Below, in pieces: positions 36,523 to 42,213 of a stretch of 64,000 nt of DNA. Position 1 is the stretch's first letter. Every line of letters begins with the position of its first letter. Under the pieces are notes generated by a model that was not told where the DNA came from, ran no database searches, and saw only the letters and a list, made by a program, of their open reading frames with translations. The translations under genes were made by a program, and so were the position numbers. Source of the DNA: Pelagihabitans pacificus (GTDB lineage Bacteria > Bacteroidota > Bacteroidia > Flavobacteriales > Flavobacteriaceae); NCBI RefSeq assembly GCF_009371985.2, contig NZ_VIKU02000002.1, positions 1 through 64,000 of the forward strand. Reading direction: 5' to 3'.

Positions 36523-37188
36523 ATGACCAAAGCAGAAAAGGTTCAATTCGCTATACAAACACTTCAGGAGTTATATCCCGTAATACCCGTTCCCCTGGAA
36601 CACAAAGATCCGTATACCCTATTGGTAGCCGTACTTATGTCGGCCCAAAGCACCGATATTCGGGTAAATCAAATAACGCCTCTCCTATTCGCCAGGGCCG
36701 ATAATCCCTATGATATGGTGACGCTATCGGTTGAAGAAATTCGAGAAATCATCAAACCAGTAGGACTTTCGCCCATGAAATCCAAAGGCATACATGGACT
36801 ATCAAGAATACTAATAGAGAAGTATGACGGTCAGGTACCCAAAGACATTGCCCTTTTGGAGGAACTGCCGGGCGTAGGTCATAAAACTGCCAGTGTGGTG
36901 GTTTCCCAAGCATTTGGTATTCCAGCATTCCCGGTTGATACGCACATACATCGCCTACTGTACCGCTGGGGATTTTCTAGTGGAAAAAATGTGATACAGA
37001 CTGAAAAGGATGCGAAAAGACTGTTCCCAAAAGAGTTATGGAACGACCTTCACCTCCAAATCATTTGGTACGGCCGTGAATACAGTCCGGCACGCGGTTG
37101 GGACCTGAACAAGGATATTATTACCCGGACTATCGGAAGAAAAGAGGTGTTGAATACATACTACAAAACAAAAAAGGCCCGTAAATAA
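36523..37188 (+). CDS. nth: Endonuclease III-like DNA glycosylase without cysteines
   Basis: 221 aa. The HhH motif LPGVGHKTASVV contains catalytic K121, and VDTH carries D139, both standard for endonuclease III. VLMSAQSTDIRVNQ and IKPVGLSPMKSKGI complete the fold. The C-terminus, which in most Nth proteins holds a C-x6-C-x2-C-x5-C [4Fe-4S] cluster, reads IWYGREYSPARGWDLNKDIITRTIGR, and there is no Cys in the whole protein. Expected function is removal of oxidised pyrimidines plus AP lyase in base excision repair. It ends in a bidirectional terminator. Confidence 0.93.
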   Translation: MTKAEKVQFAIQTLQELYPVIPVPLEHKDPYTLLVAVLMSAQSTDIRVNQITPLLFARADNPYDMVTLSVEEIREIIKPVGLSPMKSKGIHGLSRILIEKYDGQVPKDIALLEELPGVGHKTASVVVSQAFGIPAFPVDTHIHRLLYRWGFSSGKNVIQTEKDAKRLFPKELWNDLHLQIIWYGREYSPARGWDLNKDIITRTIGRKEVLNTYYKTKKARK

Positions 37189-37194
37189 CGGGCC
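37176..37194. terminator. Bidirectional terminator between nth and the 47-aa ORF
   Basis: GGCCCGT/ACGGGCC stem with 5-nt loop, overlapping the nth stop. It is flanked by an A-run to the left and AATTTT to the right, so it can act on both converging transcripts. Confidence 0.75.
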
Positions 37195-37216: not shown

Positions 37217-37360
37217 TTAATTCAAGTTGTTCTCGAAACTTAGACTGCCGTATTCAACAATGTGAAGTGATTTGGAAAAATCCAATAAAAACCTCACCGT
37301 TTCAGGTCGAGCCTTTGTTAGTTCACAGTCATTTTGATGTTTAGCGTAGATTTTTTCCAT
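37217..37360 (-). CDS. 47-aa small protein, unit 1
   Basis: From ATG 37360 (MEKIYAKHQNDCELTKARPE...); an in-frame extension to 37399 is not conserved in the paralogue. It aligns without gaps to the 47-aa ORF at 38377-38520 (22 of 47 identical; M-E-x-I-Y-A, C12, K-A-x-P-x-T, F-L-L-x-x-S-x-S-L-H-I, F-E). It lies 73 bp after sigma factor 1. Cytosolic and helical in the middle; unknown function. Conservation of the duplicate, including length, argues that it is translated. Confidence 0.7.
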   Translation of the reverse strand: MEKIYAKHQNDCELTKARPETVRFLLDFSKSLHIVEYGSLSFENNLN

Positions 37361-37433
37361 ATTGATGATCGTATAGTTATACTTAAATAACGCCACCAAT
37401 ATATAATTATTGTTCTACCCTGAACAAGTTCTC

Positions 37434-38015
37434 TTAGCTGGTCAGAACAATGTTGTGTTTGTCGATTATTTTTCGCAGGTTGATCAATGCATAACGCATG
37501 CGCCCCAATGCCGTATTTATGCTTACTCCGGTGTTCTCGGAAATCTCCTTAAAACTCATATCCTTGTAAATGCGCATTAGCAAAACCTCTTTTTGATCAT
37601 CTGGAAGTTCCTCGATGAGTAATCTTAAGTCAGTATCGATTTGGTCTTTGATCAATTGTTTTTCGGCATTTAGCTTATCATCACCGATAACCGAAAAGAT
37701 GTTGAAATCTTCGTTGCCTTCGAACATCGGCATACGTTTATTTCTTCTGAAGTGGTCGATGATCAAATTGTGTGCAATACGCATCACCCATGGCAGAAAC
37801 TTTCCCTCTTCACTGTAGGTACCTTTTTTCAAGGTCTTTATCACCTTTATAAAGGTGTCTTGAAAAATATCTTCGGTCACATCCCTATCCAACACTTTGG
37901 AATAGATAAAACTGGAGATTCGTTGGTTGTGTCTGTTGATCAATATTTCCAACGCTTTCTCGTCTCCACTTATAAAATTATTCACTAATACTGAGTCTTC
38001 AACTTGAAATTCCAT
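37434..38015 (-). CDS. RNA polymerase sigma factor (ECF/sigma-70 family), unit 1
   Basis: 193 aa. Region 2 (FIYSKVLDRDVTEDIFQDTFIKVIKTLKKG...GKFLPWVMRIAHNLIIDHFRRNKR) and region 4 (LIEELPDDQKEVLLMRIYKDMSFKEISENTGVSINTALGRMRYALINLRKI) are complete. By my alignment about 34 of 193 residues differ from the paralogue at 38596-39177, mostly at the N-terminus, after region 2 and in the linker. No anti-sigma gene of known type is adjacent, but a 47-aa ORF follows it directly. Directs RNA polymerase to a specific promoter set, not identifiable here. Confidence 0.93.
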   Translation of the reverse strand: MEFQVEDSVLVNNFISGDEKALEILINRHNQRISSFIYSKVLDRDVTEDIFQDTFIKVIKTLKKGTYSEEGKFLPWVMRIAHNLIIDHFRRNKRMPMFEGNEDFNIFSVIGDDKLNAEKQLIKDQIDTDLRLLIEELPDDQKEVLLMRIYKDMSFKEISENTGVSINTALGRMRYALINLRKIIDKHNIVLTS

Positions 38016-38376
38016 ACAAACAAGGTTTTGGTTAAGTTAGGGGCCTTCTCGACTGGGAAAGCTTTTGATAGTTTTTAGTTTTTCATGTTAAAACATGCCT
38101 TTGTGAAAGACTGTTTCGATTTTTAATTATGACCTAAAACTAGACAATACCCCATCTTTGGGAAAAACAATGTTGTAAAACCACTTGTTTTTGATGTGAA
38201 ATCGCACTTTCTCTAATCCCAATACAATTTATCCAACTATTGGGCGTTCCGCTCGAAAGCAAAATCATCGATAAACGGTCTAGTCTTATCACTGGGGAAC
38301 CCCTTTTCTTTTCAAAAAGGTCATAAAAAAAACCCCGACCAAATGTCAGGGTTCATTACAAAAGTGGGCCAATAAT
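38016..38376. other. Spacer between the two sigma units
   Basis: About 360 bp. It holds the terminator of unit 2 (38331-38353) and must hold the promoter of unit 1. No other gene seen. Confidence 0.5.
38331..38353 (-). terminator. Terminator after sigma/47-aa unit 2
   Basis: On the minus strand AACCCTGAC / GTCGGGGTT (one mismatch) is followed by T7. About 25 bp past the small ORF stop. Confidence 0.7.
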
Positions 38377-38520
38377 TTAATTCTTATGACTTTCGAACAC
38401 TATTCCTTTTACTTTCGAGATGTGAAGCGATCTGGAATACTCCAATAAAAAATGTATCGTATCCGGTTTCGCTTTCACGAGCCTACATATTGTTTTATCA
38501 TTCGCGTAAATGTCTTCCAT
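38377..38520 (-). CDS. 47-aa small protein, unit 2
   Basis: ATG 38520 to TAA 38377; sequence begins MEDIYANDKTICRLVKAKPD. It has the same length and pattern as the ORF at 37217-37360: ME-x-IYA, C12, KA-x-P-x-T, FLL-x-x-S-x-SLHI, FE, and final N. It starts 75 bp after the stop of sigma factor 2, mirroring the 73-bp gap in unit 1. Unknown function; no signal peptide. Confidence 0.7.
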   Translation of the reverse strand: MEDIYANDKTICRLVKAKPDTIHFLLEYSRSLHISKVKGIVFESHKN

Positions 38521-38595
38521 AATATCTTAGCATTGTTTCTGATAAGGATAACGGTACTAAGATACTTATAGTGGTCCTGTTCGACCTTTTGCAAA

Positions 38596-39177
38596 TTAAT
38601 TCGTTAAAACAATGTTGTTCTTATCTATGATTTTCCTGAGATTGATCAATGCATAGCGCATTCGCCCCAGGGCAGTATTGATACTAACCCCAGTTATCTC
38701 GGAGATTTCCTTAAAACTCATATCCTTATAGATACGCATGAGCAATACTTGCTTCTGATCTTCGGGCAGTTCCTCGATCAGTAGATTCAAATCACAATCG
38801 ATTTGATCTTTTATAAGCTGTTTTTCGATATTGAGGCGGTCATCGCTTACGAACGAAAATATGTTAAAGCTATCACTTCCCTCGAACATGGGCATCCTAC
38901 TGGTCTTTCTAAAGTGATCAATAATGAGGTTATGCGCTATACGCATCACCCATGGCAAAAACTTGCCCTCTTCGCTGTAGGTACCCCTTTTGAGGGTTCG
39001 GATTACCTTTATAAAGGTGTCCTGAAAAATGTCTTCGGTGATATCGCGGTCGTTGACTTTGGAATATATAAAACCGCTGATGCGTTGGTTGTGTCTGTTG
39101 ATGAGTGTTTCGAGCGCCTTTTCGTCTCCGTTGATGTATCTTTTGATCAGTAGGGAATCGTCGATAAGTACTTCCAT
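38596..39177 (-). CDS. RNA polymerase sigma factor (ECF/sigma-70 family), unit 2
   Basis: 193 aa, a tandem paralogue of the gene at 37434-38015. Regions 2 and 4 are nearly identical, including the -10-binding helix (EDIFQDTFIKVIRTLKRG) and the -35-binding helix (SVSINTALGRMRY-type GVSINTALGRMRYAL). Because the DNA-reading helices are the same, both should recognise very similar promoters; differences lie mainly in the first 15 residues and the linker after region 2 (TSRMPMFEGSDSFNIFSFVSDD). Divergent from uvrA with 246 bp between. Followed by its own 47-aa ORF and terminator. Confidence 0.93.
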   Translation of the reverse strand: MEVLIDDSLLIKRYINGDEKALETLINRHNQRISGFIYSKVNDRDITEDIFQDTFIKVIRTLKRGTYSEEGKFLPWVMRIAHNLIIDHFRKTSRMPMFEGSDSFNIFSFVSDDRLNIEKQLIKDQIDCDLNLLIEELPEDQKQVLLMRIYKDMSFKEISEITGVSINTALGRMRYALINLRKIIDKNNIVLTN

Positions 39178-39398
39178 AACAATTACTTTTTTGGTTACAA
39201 CTACAGACCTTTCTGGGGAAAAAAGTCTTTAAGGTTATTCCTTGAATTCTAAAAAAGTAATTGTTGATCTATAGGCTTTTAACGTTTTGTTATGTTCAAA
39301 TATAGAAAAAATTAAGTGGAACAAACAAATTTGTGCTGTAAGAAATATAAAATTACATAAGGTGCCGAGCACTGCTAGCTAAAAATTAGCGCTTGTCG

Positions 39399-39423: not shown

Positions 39424-42213
39424 ATGCCCGCAATTACAGAAGTAAACCCCAAGGAAAACATTATTATCAAGGGTGCCAAACTCCACAATTTAAAAAATAT
39501 CGATGTTGTCATCCCTAGGAATAAACTCGTGGTAATTACAGGTTTGTCGGGTTCAGGCAAATCCAGTCTTGCCTTCGATACTTTATATGCCGAGGGGCAA
39601 AGAAGGTATGTAGAAAGTCTTTCATCATACGCCAGACAGTTTTTGGGCAAACTCGACAAACCAAAGGTGGATTATATAAAAGGTATCGCACCCGCTATCG
39701 CCATCGAACAAAAAGTAAATTCGACCAACCCCCGTTCTACGGTGGGCACCACCACTGAAATCTATGATTATCTAAAACTGTTGTACGCCCGTATCGGGAA
39801 GACCATCTCACCCATTTCCGGTAAGGAAGTTAAGAAACATTCGGTGACCGACGTCATCGAACATATAAAGGAATACGAGGCCGGAACCAAGCTGTTGCTA
39901 TTGGCTCCCATTACGATAGATGAAAAACGAGACTCCCTGAAATCACTTCAGTTACTATCGAAACAAGGGTATGCGAGAATCAAATATCAGGGAGAAGTAA
40001 TGCGGATAGATGCTGCGCCCCGGGATATCGGAAAGCAATTCTATCTGGTGGTCGATAGGATTATCACACAAGATGATGAGGATTTTTACAATCGCCTGGC
40101 CAACGCCGTCGACAGTGCCTTTTTTGAGGGCAAGGGTGAATGTATCATAGAGGAACTCTCCAACGAAAAACAGACATTTTTTAGTAACAGGTTCGAATTG
40201 GACGGCATGTCGTTCCCAGAGGCCAATGTTCACCTTTTTAGCTTCAACAACCCCTACGGCGCCTGTCCCAAATGCGAAGGTTATGGGGACGTCATTGGCA
40301 TCGACGAAGATTTGGTGGTTCCGAATACCGCCTTATCCGTTTTTGAAAATGCCATTTTCCCATGGCGTGGCGAGAGCATGGGATGGTACCGTGACCAACT
40401 GGTTAACGCCGCCTACAAATTTGATTTCCCAATTCATAAACCGTGGTTTCAATTGACGGAAGAACAAAAGGAACTCGTTTGGAAAGGTAATGACCATTTC
40501 ATCGGACTGGATAAATTTTTCTCCATGTTAGAGGAAAAAAGCTATAAAATCCAGAACCGGGTAATGCTGTCCAGATATCGCGGGAAGACCCGATGCAATC
40601 TTTGCAAAGGCAAGCGCTTGAGAAAAGAGGTCGGTTATGTTCAGGTCCATGGCAAATCGATTTCGGATTTGGTCGAATTATCCATCGAAAAACTGATTCA
40701 TTTCTTTGGTGGGCTTACATTAAGTGCCCACGATGCAAAGATTGCGTCTCGTTTACTGAAAGAAATCAATACCCGACTCGGTTTTTTGAGCAAGGTAGGA
40801 TTGGGATACTTGACCCTTAACCGAAAATCGAATACACTCTCCGGTGGGGAAAGTCAACGTATCAATCTGGCCACCTCTTTGGGCAGTAGTTTGGTAGGGA
40901 GTATGTACATCCTTGACGAACCCAGTATCGGACTTCATCCAAAGGATACCGAGAATTTAATCGAGGTACTCAAGTCTTTGAGGGATCTTGGCAATACCGT
41001 CATTGTGGTGGAACATGACGAAGATGTCATGAAAGCGGCCGACCAAGTTATCGATATTGGTCCAGAAGCCGGTACGCACGGTGGGGAAGTTGTTGCCACC
41101 GGAAGCTACGACGAGATACTCGCTTCCTCCTCACTTACGGCGAACTATTTGAATGGTTCTGAAGAAATCCCCGTTCCCAATACAAGAAGAACGTCTAAAA
41201 GTTTTATCGAGATCAAAGGTGCCCGGGAAAACAATCTGAAAAACATTGATGTCACCTTTCCTTTAAACATGCTCACCGTTATTACCGGGGTTTCCGGAAG
41301 TGGTAAAAGCACCCTAGTCAAAAAACTGCTATACCCTATCATCCTAAAGGAAGTCGGAGGATATGGGGAAAAGGCTGGGCAGTATACCGCTGTGGAAGGT
41401 AAATATCAGTCTATCAAGCACGTGGAATTTGTAGACCAAAATCCCATTGGGCGGTCCTCACGATCAAATCCTGTCACCTATATCAAGGCGTATGACGATA
41501 TTAGAACCTTATTCGCTAACCAGAAGTTGAGTAAGATCAGGGCGTACCAAGCCAAACACTTCTCCTTTAATGTAGACGGGGGGCGTTGCGAAAAGTGTAA
41601 GGGGGAAGGCGAAATCACCGTGGAGATGCAGTTTATGGCCGATGTACATCTCGAATGTGACACTTGTGACGGTAAGCGCTTCAAAAAGGAGGTATTGGAA
41701 GTAACCTTCGAAGGGGCATCTATCGATGATGTATTAAATATGACTATTGATGACGCCATTTCGTTCTTTGAACAACATAAACAGACAAAAATTACCTCCA
41801 AACTAAAACCATTGCAAGATGTAGGGCTTGGATACGTTACCCTGGGACAATCGTCCTCGACCCTCTCCGGTGGGGAGGCGCAACGCATCAAATTGGCTTC
41901 CTTTCTGGTAAAGGGTACTACCAAGGACAAAGCACTGTTTATTTTTGATGAACCGACCACGGGACTTCATTTTCACGACATCAAAAAATTACTCAAGTCC
42001 TTCGATGCCCTCATTTCTAGTGGGCATTCCGTCATCGTAATCGAACATAACATAGAACTCATCAAGTGCGCCGACTATATTGTCGACCTGGGACTTGAGG
42101 GTGGTGAAAATGGCGGCCAACTGCTTGTACAAGGCACTCCAGAGGAACTGGCAAAGGACACTATTTCGCACACGGCCAAGTATTTAAGGGAAAAGCTGTC
42201 CCGATCGAATTAA
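39424..42213 (+). CDS. uvrA: Excinuclease ABC subunit A
   Basis: 929 aa. Two ABC ATPase halves: Walker A GLSGSGKSS (about 38) and GVSGSGKST (about 624), with signatures LSGGESQRI and LSGGEAQRI, and Walker B YILDEPSIGLHP and FIFDEPTTGLHF. Zinc fingers are intact: CPKC...CNLC region and CEKC...CDTC. UvrA recognises damaged DNA with UvrB in nucleotide excision repair. Cytosolic. Many flavobacteria have two UvrA proteins and this could be either. Probably monocistronic. Confidence 0.95.
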   Translation: MPAITEVNPKENIIIKGAKLHNLKNIDVVIPRNKLVVITGLSGSGKSSLAFDTLYAEGQRRYVESLSSYARQFLGKLDKPKVDYIKGIAPAIAIEQKVNSTNPRSTVGTTTEIYDYLKLLYARIGKTISPISGKEVKKHSVTDVIEHIKEYEAGTKLLLLAPITIDEKRDSLKSLQLLSKQGYARIKYQGEVMRIDAAPRDIGKQFYLVVDRIITQDDEDFYNRLANAVDSAFFEGKGECIIEELSNEKQTFFSNRFELDGMSFPEANVHLFSFNNPYGACPKCEGYGDVIGIDEDLVVPNTALSVFENAIFPWRGESMGWYRDQLVNAAYKFDFPIHKPWFQLTEEQKELVWKGNDHFIGLDKFFSMLEEKSYKIQNRVMLSRYRGKTRCNLCKGKRLRKEVGYVQVHGKSISDLVELSIEKLIHFFGGLTLSAHDAKIASRLLKEINTRLGFLSKVGLGYLTLNRKSNTLSGGESQRINLATSLGSSLVGSMYILDEPSIGLHPKDTENLIEVLKSLRDLGNTVIVVEHDEDVMKAADQVIDIGPEAGTHGGEVVATGSYDEILASSSLTANYLNGSEEIPVPNTRRTSKSFIEIKGARENNLKNIDVTFPLNMLTVITGVSGSGKSTLVKKLLYPIILKEVGGYGEKAGQYTAVEGKYQSIKHVEFVDQNPIGRSSRSNPVTYIKAYDDIRTLFANQKLSKIRAYQAKHFSFNVDGGRCEKCKGEGEITVEMQFMADVHLECDTCDGKRFKKEVLEVTFEGASIDDVLNMTIDDAISFFEQHKQTKITSKLKPLQDVGLGYVTLGQSSSTLSGGEAQRIKLASFLVKGTTKDKALFIFDEPTTGLHFHDIKKLLKSFDALISSGHSVIVIEHNIELIKCADYIVDLGLEGGENGGQLLVQGTPEELAKDTISHTAKYLREKLSRSN

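Follow-up and report, generated by a model that had tools for sequence, protein, structure and literature searches.

A widespread ECF sigma factor probably turns on an adjoining, previously unnamed 47-residue protein and the main pore of type IX secretion

What does a protein of 47 residues do behind an ECF sigma factor gene, and how are its controls arranged when the pair occurs twice in tandem? The question is raised by the window analyzed here, a stretch of 64,000 nucleotides from Pelagihabitans pacificus. The two tandem pairs of a 193-aa sigma factor and a 47-codon ORF that the original prediction described are present where it placed them, all four genes on the minus strand. Copy B is transcribed first: its sigma gene (38596..39177, 193 aa) adjoins a divergent ORF that we take to be uvrA (39424..42213, plus strand) and is followed after 75 nt by small ORF B (38377..38520, 47 aa). 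Copy A comes second, with its sigma gene (37434..38015, 193 aa), a gap of 73 nt, and small ORF A (37217..37360, 47 aa), which starts at an internal ATG inside a 60-aa frame; the convergent ORF beyond it is presumably nth, for endonuclease III (36523..37188, plus strand). By eye, a terminator-like hairpin closes both cassettes: one with a T run lies 3' of small ORF B (38331..38353, minus strand), and the other (GGCCCGTTATTTACGGGCC, 37176..37194, minus strand) is common to cassette A and nth. The small genes were called from reading frame, homology search, and alignment. For the sigma genes, we used reading frame, the tree described below, and domain models; both proteins exceed the cut-offs of Pfam Sigma70_r2 and r4_2 and of TIGR02937, and on these matches they qualify as ECF sigma factors, with sigma-70 regions 2 and 4 in about 190 aa. 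They are 82.4% identical, which agrees with the roughly 34 differences that had been counted, and their region-4 recognition helix (SINTALGRMRYALINLRK) is identical, as the original prediction had said of the DNA-reading helices. In genome searches, P. pacificus yielded no copies of the small protein beyond these two.

A family member on the same strand followed 132 of 133 sigma copies at 97 loci (the window, with its two copies, L003-L018, and L031-L110; a few genomes are present twice), so the small gene is indeed tied to this sigma family; the lone exception, L108, has a small ORF 635 nt downstream. In the Flavobacteriaceae, a 30-row profile of the small protein matched 268 of 299 genomes, from 215 of 236 genera, and in the Bacteroidia 131 of 395 genomes, and several of the genomes that it missed carry a diverged small ORF at the equivalent place, judged by eye. 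In other Bacteroidia families, the sigma gene was not adjacent in 10 of 20 fetched loci, some of which had been retrieved on account of a previous, shorter locus without a sigma gene. Four of these 10 unlinked small genes adjoin nth, and L162 holds a further unlinked one. The expectation that the small gene always lies downstream of the sigma gene therefore stands for the 132 copies but fails in several Bacteroidia. Even there, the sigma factor is encoded elsewhere in the genome in all 12 queried genomes with an unlinked small gene (11 inspected), with matches at E 1.6e-73 or better and the second-best match within a genome at 5.4e-29 or weaker. Each of the 23 genomes in which the small protein was matched had the sigma factor, and among 40 genomes picked precisely for lacking such a match, it was found in 31 (two of them with weaker matches, E 2.4e-46 and 8.8e-39) and was absent from nine.

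Both 47-aa ORFs encode conserved proteins under selection, because homologues lie beside sigma genes in other genomes and because dN/dS between the window's two copies is 0.31 (0.477/1.516) rather than near 1. The two proteins could be aligned as anticipated, over residues 1-46 (46% identity, E=1.8e-9); Cys12, which had been read as fixed, is common to both copies but not conserved in the family. What is fixed is a PxxTIxFLLNYSKAL-V core and a C-terminal Asn. Beyond the Flavobacteriaceae, it is the C-terminal half that is conserved, as TIxxILNYSKAL-V-x(n)-LN, and the final Asn is invariant in 33 sequences aligned class-wide. The aligned relatives range from 44 to 89 aa. Pooled over 28 pairs, pN was 0.139 and pS 0.425 for the small ORF, a set that includes six pairs with a sigma pN >0.1, two of those about 0.7 through misalignment. 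Synonymous change was slow in the small ORF as well, in 16 of the 22 close pairs (sigma pN <0.1), which points to constraint on RNA or DNA besides the protein, and its Tyr codons 4-6 are TAC in 181/183 cases, compared with 448/1275 in the sigma genes. Database searches gave little: the 47-aa forms match nothing in Pfam and NCBIfam, no small protein exceeded a Pfam cut-off, the best E against PDB sequences with the small-protein profile was 1.9, and the 33 class-wide members hit two PHROGs families, with one member each (E 0.007-0.008). By eye, the small protein has no membrane segment, and three alignments show no zinc-binding HxxxCxxC (ZAS subtype).

ECF promoters combine a -35-like hexamer, a spacer of 15 nt, and a CGTT tetramer as the -10-like element. 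Judged by sequence, the small gene has its own promoter-like element of this kind, RCAATA-N15-CGTT. Among 211 unique gaps between sigma and small gene, CGTT stood 20-70 nt before the small-gene ATG in 205 (23.6 when shuffled), and the full ACAATA-N15-CGTT was present in 109 (0.0 when shuffled). A motif search located this family-wide motif before small ORF A as ACAATA-N15-CGTTA (37388..37413, minus strand). A promoter matrix found 157/211 within the gap, a circular count since the matrix was trained there. In the regions where it is not circular, neither the sigma gene nor the stretch 3' of the cassette held anything above threshold, and matches upstream of the sigma gene were limited to 6/211 loci, 111-150 nt away and all in out-group taxa. 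A promoter of the same type before the sigma gene was thus not found in Flavobacteriaceae; in the six out-group loci, the element lies as autoregulation would need.

The element usually accompanies the small gene when the latter is away from the sigma gene. For 11 unlinked small genes, the best upstream site beat all 200 shuffles in seven; in the remainder, L162 gave p 0.005, and L178 (p 0.045) and L179 (p 0.025) were weak. At L182, also unlinked, the element needs a 16-nt spacer. Across the P. pacificus genome, the exact ACAATA-N15-CGTTA occurred at three sites and its reversed control at one, so that the regulon cannot be read from a single genome. The three sites are at small gene A, inside ruvA ahead of sprA, and 125 nt before an ORF of 291 aa.

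The sigma gene carries a different kind of element, an inverted repeat in its leader that abuts the ATG. Perfect stems of at least 9 bp were found in 125/211 leaders, as against 13/633 shuffles. For sigma B, the 3' arm of 15 bp (AAAAAAGTAATTGTT, 39178..39192, minus strand) abuts the start codon, the 5' arm (AACAATTACTTTTTT) lies at 39251..39265 (minus strand), and farther upstream stands TATATTTG (39297..39304, minus strand), similar in relatives, which we take to resemble the Bacteroidetes housekeeping -7 element. In 140 of the 211 leaders, selected for TACT...AGTA with the best stem kept, a choice that favors pairing, paired changes beat all 500 permutations at positions -3, -2, -1, +1, +3, +4, and +5; covariation was not above permutations at -6, -5, -4, +2, and +6. 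Pairing between the small mRNA and the sigma leader reached 5 bp at best, by eye.

Hairpin and promoter are divided between tandem copies. In 38 tandem pairs, the stem was present in 36/38 first copies and 2/38 second copies, and the RCAATA-N15-CGTT promoter in 0/38 first copies and 38/38 second copies, an unusually clean sharing-out of controls by duplicates. Single-copy loci had the stem in 45/64 and the promoter in 54/64; the comparison omits 83 loci whose short flanks leave single and tandem arrangements undecidable. The original prediction that the two pairs differ in regulation and not in the recognition helix is borne out by this division. First copies keep CGTT in 38/38 and have GGTCGA in 30/38, in 29 of these 27-28 nt upstream of CGTT. 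Small ORF B has an altered promoter of this form (38550..38586, minus strand), with GGTCGA (38581-38586), 27 nt, and CGTT (38550-38553) but without RCAATA. In the tree, window copy B belongs to a clade of first copies (16 rows, support 100/97), copy A sits among the remaining rows without resolution, and certain first copies (Arenibacter, Eudoraea, Muriicola) are placed outside the clade, so there may have been more than one duplication. We propose that most single-copy relatives make a sigma mRNA with the hairpin over its start codon, and that upon tandem duplication the first copy would have retained hairpin control as its small gene lost the -35 element, and the second copy would have lost the hairpin and retained the promoter.

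The genomic site ahead of sprA is 154 nt from that gene's listed start, within the 3'-terminal part of ruvA, and it recurs. Among 70 ruvA loci from 70 genomes, RCAATA-N15-CGTTA was present in 67, always 146 nt upstream of the ruvA stop codon. Within the element, Ala is encoded by GCG in 69/70 (elsewhere in ruvA, 123/904, or 14%) and Leu by TTA in 68/70 (elsewhere, 561/1457), and the spacer's codons for Thr and Asn are variable. Twenty more ruvA loci, 18 of them new genomes, added 17 with the element, including all five sigma-bearing genomes among those tested for sigma, so that 84/88 genomes have it in total. The four without it are G061, which has an ATAATA variant; G125, in which the small protein is present; and G031 and G095, neither of which has the sigma factor. 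The order ruvA then sprA holds in 49/50 loci; in the exception, G031, sprA lies elsewhere in the genome and is without the element. At 21 sprA loci from outside the order Flavobacteriales, the exact element was present in eight (G576, G544, G680, G445, G611, G586, G332, and G342) and did not occur within 450 nt upstream in the other 13. SprA, the Sov counterpart, forms the conduit of the type IX secretion system (T9SS) according to the accessible literature. It was found in 59/63 genomes, and all four SprA-negative genomes are among the nine sigma-negative ones, a co-absence that incomplete genomes confound.

Relaxing the motif to RCAATA-N15-CGTTW gave 106 matches in nine genomes against 108 for the reversed control; since it is no commoner than the control, we put weight only on sites that recur at the same gene. 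Three such sites lie at the end of pgk before a transglycosylase-like gene (8/9 genomes), at the end of a GAPDH-like gene before a TPR gene (9/9 by matched sequence, three inspected), and at the end of rnpA before an S41-type protease gene (4/9); these gene names, those of the hosts included, are presumptive readings of the sequences.

Such sites could also be read to mean that the small protein is simply a product of the regulon, serving the secretion system, the envelope, or RNA polymerase and not acting on sigma. The small gene and sprA have a common promoter type, possibly shared with the transglycosylase-like, TPR, and S41-type protease genes, and in other families the small gene is unlinked from sigma, near unrelated genes. 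We consider this unlikely, because almost every Flavobacteriaceae locus examined has the small gene linked to sigma, because the two were duplicated together, and because five sigma-less genomes that have sprA (G031, G095, G180, G201, and G348, picked among the profile-missed genomes) gave no small-protein match. It is also rather improbable that RCAATA-N15-CGTT is a regulator site or is read by another sigma factor, which would place the small gene and sprA outside this regulon. The link between sigma and element is correlative, the P. pacificus genome gives 27 matches with an ECF model at E<=1e-10, and G201, a sigma-less assembly that is 77% complete, retains the element at sprA/ruvA. The element nevertheless tracks the sigma/small-gene pair class-wide, stands upstream of sigma itself in the six out-group loci, and is missing from ruvA in two sigma-less genomes, and RCAATA-N15-CGTTA is probably read by this sigma factor.

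We hypothesize that a cassette found across the Bacteroidia is present twice in tandem in the window, and that it encodes an ECF sigma factor, which most likely regulates type IX secretion in the manner of SigP, together with a small protein of the cytosol. Free sigma would transcribe the small gene from RCAATA-N15-CGTTA and also sprA, via the like promoter hidden in ruvA. The likeliest role of the small protein is to bind sigma and inactivate it, which would close a negative-feedback loop, and the protein may be either a reduced soluble anti-sigma factor or an adaptor that removes sigma. Contact with sigma and the negative sign of its effect are what we infer from a sigma-type promoter and co-retention, which a feedback partner fits best. 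An anti-sigma factor was among the roles first put forward, and an anti-sigma-type feedback protein is now the best inference, with about an even chance of being correct.

Profile matches hint in the same direction. The N-terminal part of 89-aa homologues from one family matches the NCBIfam anti-sigma model NF052375 (best E 4.7e-4; three of five members at E<=1; 20 bits, where the cut-off is 100), one of these homologues matches the ChrR anti-sigma at E 0.11, and the best PDB match of the 89-aa form is the anti-sigma DdvA (E 0.29). This N-terminal part is absent from the 47-aa forms, and scanning across the class returned weak matches to unrelated families too, such as TmaR (E 0.0072). A tethered AlphaFold model of sigma and small protein had a pTM of 0.50 and no readable interface; its small part forms a helix and a beta hairpin (block pLDDT 71-90), a fold that disagrees with the two helices of a single-sequence model of 46/47 residues (mean pLDDT 64.6). 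Foldseek matched the tethered fold best to ECF sigma chains, several of them from sigma/anti-sigma complexes, with no aligned ranges given.

A positive cofactor, which stabilizes sigma or couples it to a PorX-like response regulator, would leave the same gene pairing, and a helper is conceivable in that the SigP protein of Porphyromonas gingivalis is missing in a porX mutant, according to the accessible text (PMC4800418). We give it a small chance, because a sigma-dependent promoter for sigma's own activator would be expected to produce runaway feedback and because the domains indicated by the weak profile matches are of anti-sigma type. That the transcript of ~200 nt is mainly a regulatory RNA with the peptide secondary is very unlikely: its own promoter and terminator-like hairpin, the slow synonymous change, and the TAC codons would suit this, but the dN/dS between copies, a low pN/pS between relatives, the class-wide retention of core and C-terminal Asn, and the lack of any Rfam family at gathering score speak against it.

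The feedback loop thus remains our best explanation as a whole, namely a SigP-like T9SS sigma factor with a sigma-induced small partner of anti-sigma type and with controls split between duplicates, and we judge the chances for and against it to be equal. Held a shade more tentatively is the wider claim that these are undescribed, class-wide mini anti-sigmas, induced by and controlling a T9SS sigma factor, with promoters hidden in upstream genes (ruvA, perhaps rnpA, gap, and pgk) and with hairpin and feedback promoter split by duplication. The finding gives a testable promoter motif, a target (sprA, from within ruvA), and a 47-aa regulator, with relevance to gliding, polymer-degrading bacteria and their relatives. 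Control of the T9SS outside P. gingivalis looks largely open in the accessible literature, for example in an account which says that Flavobacterium johnsoniae has one SigP homologue (PMC10951265).

Among known systems, EcfO-Reo of Bacteroides fragilis/Phocaeicola likewise pairs a Bacteroidales ECF sigma factor with an anti-sigma. We rejected Reo as a precedent, since by the accessible description it spans the cell envelope, reaching from the cytoplasm to the cell surface. The genes of class I anti-sigmas (RsiW, ChrR, MucA, RseA, and DdvA) lie just downstream of that of the ECF sigma factor, as the small gene does in 132/133 copies, with unlinked cases in some other families, and theirs is the domain weakly matched by the 89-aa homologues. 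Unlike them, the small protein has 47 aa, is without a membrane segment (by eye) or zinc ligands, has its own promoter, and ends in a conserved C-terminal ILNYSKAL...LN tail. CnrY, in its cytosolic part, and NepR capture sigma with a few dozen residues. The small protein showed no sequence similarity to either in the PDB profile search. Structures that the tethered model matched in fold include the sigma chains of complexes 4cxf and 5uxx.

The closest comparison is with SigP (PGN_0274) of P. gingivalis, a 193-aa ECF sigma factor that binds PorX and whose loss lowers T9SS genes, by the accessible text (PMC4800418). The accessible P. gingivalis literature mentions no small partner of SigP, whereas the window's sigma factors have the small ORF, and the open-licence PMC texts, as far as accessible, name neither an anti-sigma nor a small partner for it. 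Four genes put forward by one group as possible anti-sigmas, PGN_0320, 0451, 0969, and 1107, are by number not neighbors of sigP, which is itself reported to be autoregulated (PMC7712824, accessible part). In the accessible accounts, PorXY raises the por genes, among them sov, which corresponds to sprA. The PorX footprint on porT contains ACAATA (PMC8050853), and from this footprint it is 29 nt to a sigma-P start site (PMC8265659); a hand count on the published footprint, in the parts accessible, places ACAATA ~34 nt upstream of the start site. The window's sigma factors have the same length of 193 aa and may be orthologous to SigP; we regard their being its counterparts as a strong lead.

We observed that a hairpin lies at the sigma start codon, with arms at 39178-39192 and 39251-39265 on the minus strand of the window, and that it is kept, with covariation, in the leaders of related sigma genes. 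Among the copy classes it was found at 45 of 64 single-copy loci, in 36 of 38 first copies of the tandem pairs, and in 2 of 38 second copies; it is possibly a translational switch. In the small ORF, tyrosine at codons 4-6 is encoded by TAC in 181 of 183 cases among the unique pairs, while elsewhere it is mostly TAT, and this TAC sits in a TTTACTCT context similar to the hairpin's 5' arm in the sigma leader.

Upstream of the first-copy small gene, GGTCGA is present at 38581-38586 (minus strand) and also in the first copies of relatives, where it precedes CGTT by 27-28 nt (29/38 first copies). RCAATA is missing from the first copies, and GGTCGA is perhaps an activator site.

The promoter-like element of the small gene, RCAATA-N15-CGTT, also recurs before other genes (named from their sequence) over nine genomes. 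GCAATA-N15-CGTTA overlaps the pgk stop in eight (loci L389, L404-L410), 57-167 nt upstream of a transglycosylase-like frame. ACAATA-N15-CGTTT lies within the 3' end of rnpA in four (L411-L414), 114-191 nt upstream of an S41-type protease gene. In L397, another ACAATA-N15-CGTTT site falls within a GAPDH-like gene, at its 3' end; the sequence of this site was matched in 9/9 genomes, with conservation that is in part coding, and in the three inspected (L397, L373, L376) it precedes a TPR-containing gene by 148-151 nt. The third exact motif of the P. pacificus genome (L252:1501-1526, minus strand) stands 125 nt upstream of a 291-aa ORF.

Finally, nth adjoins unlinked small genes at L172, L174, L177, and L181, as if the small gene had been left at its old locus and the sigma gene had relocated.
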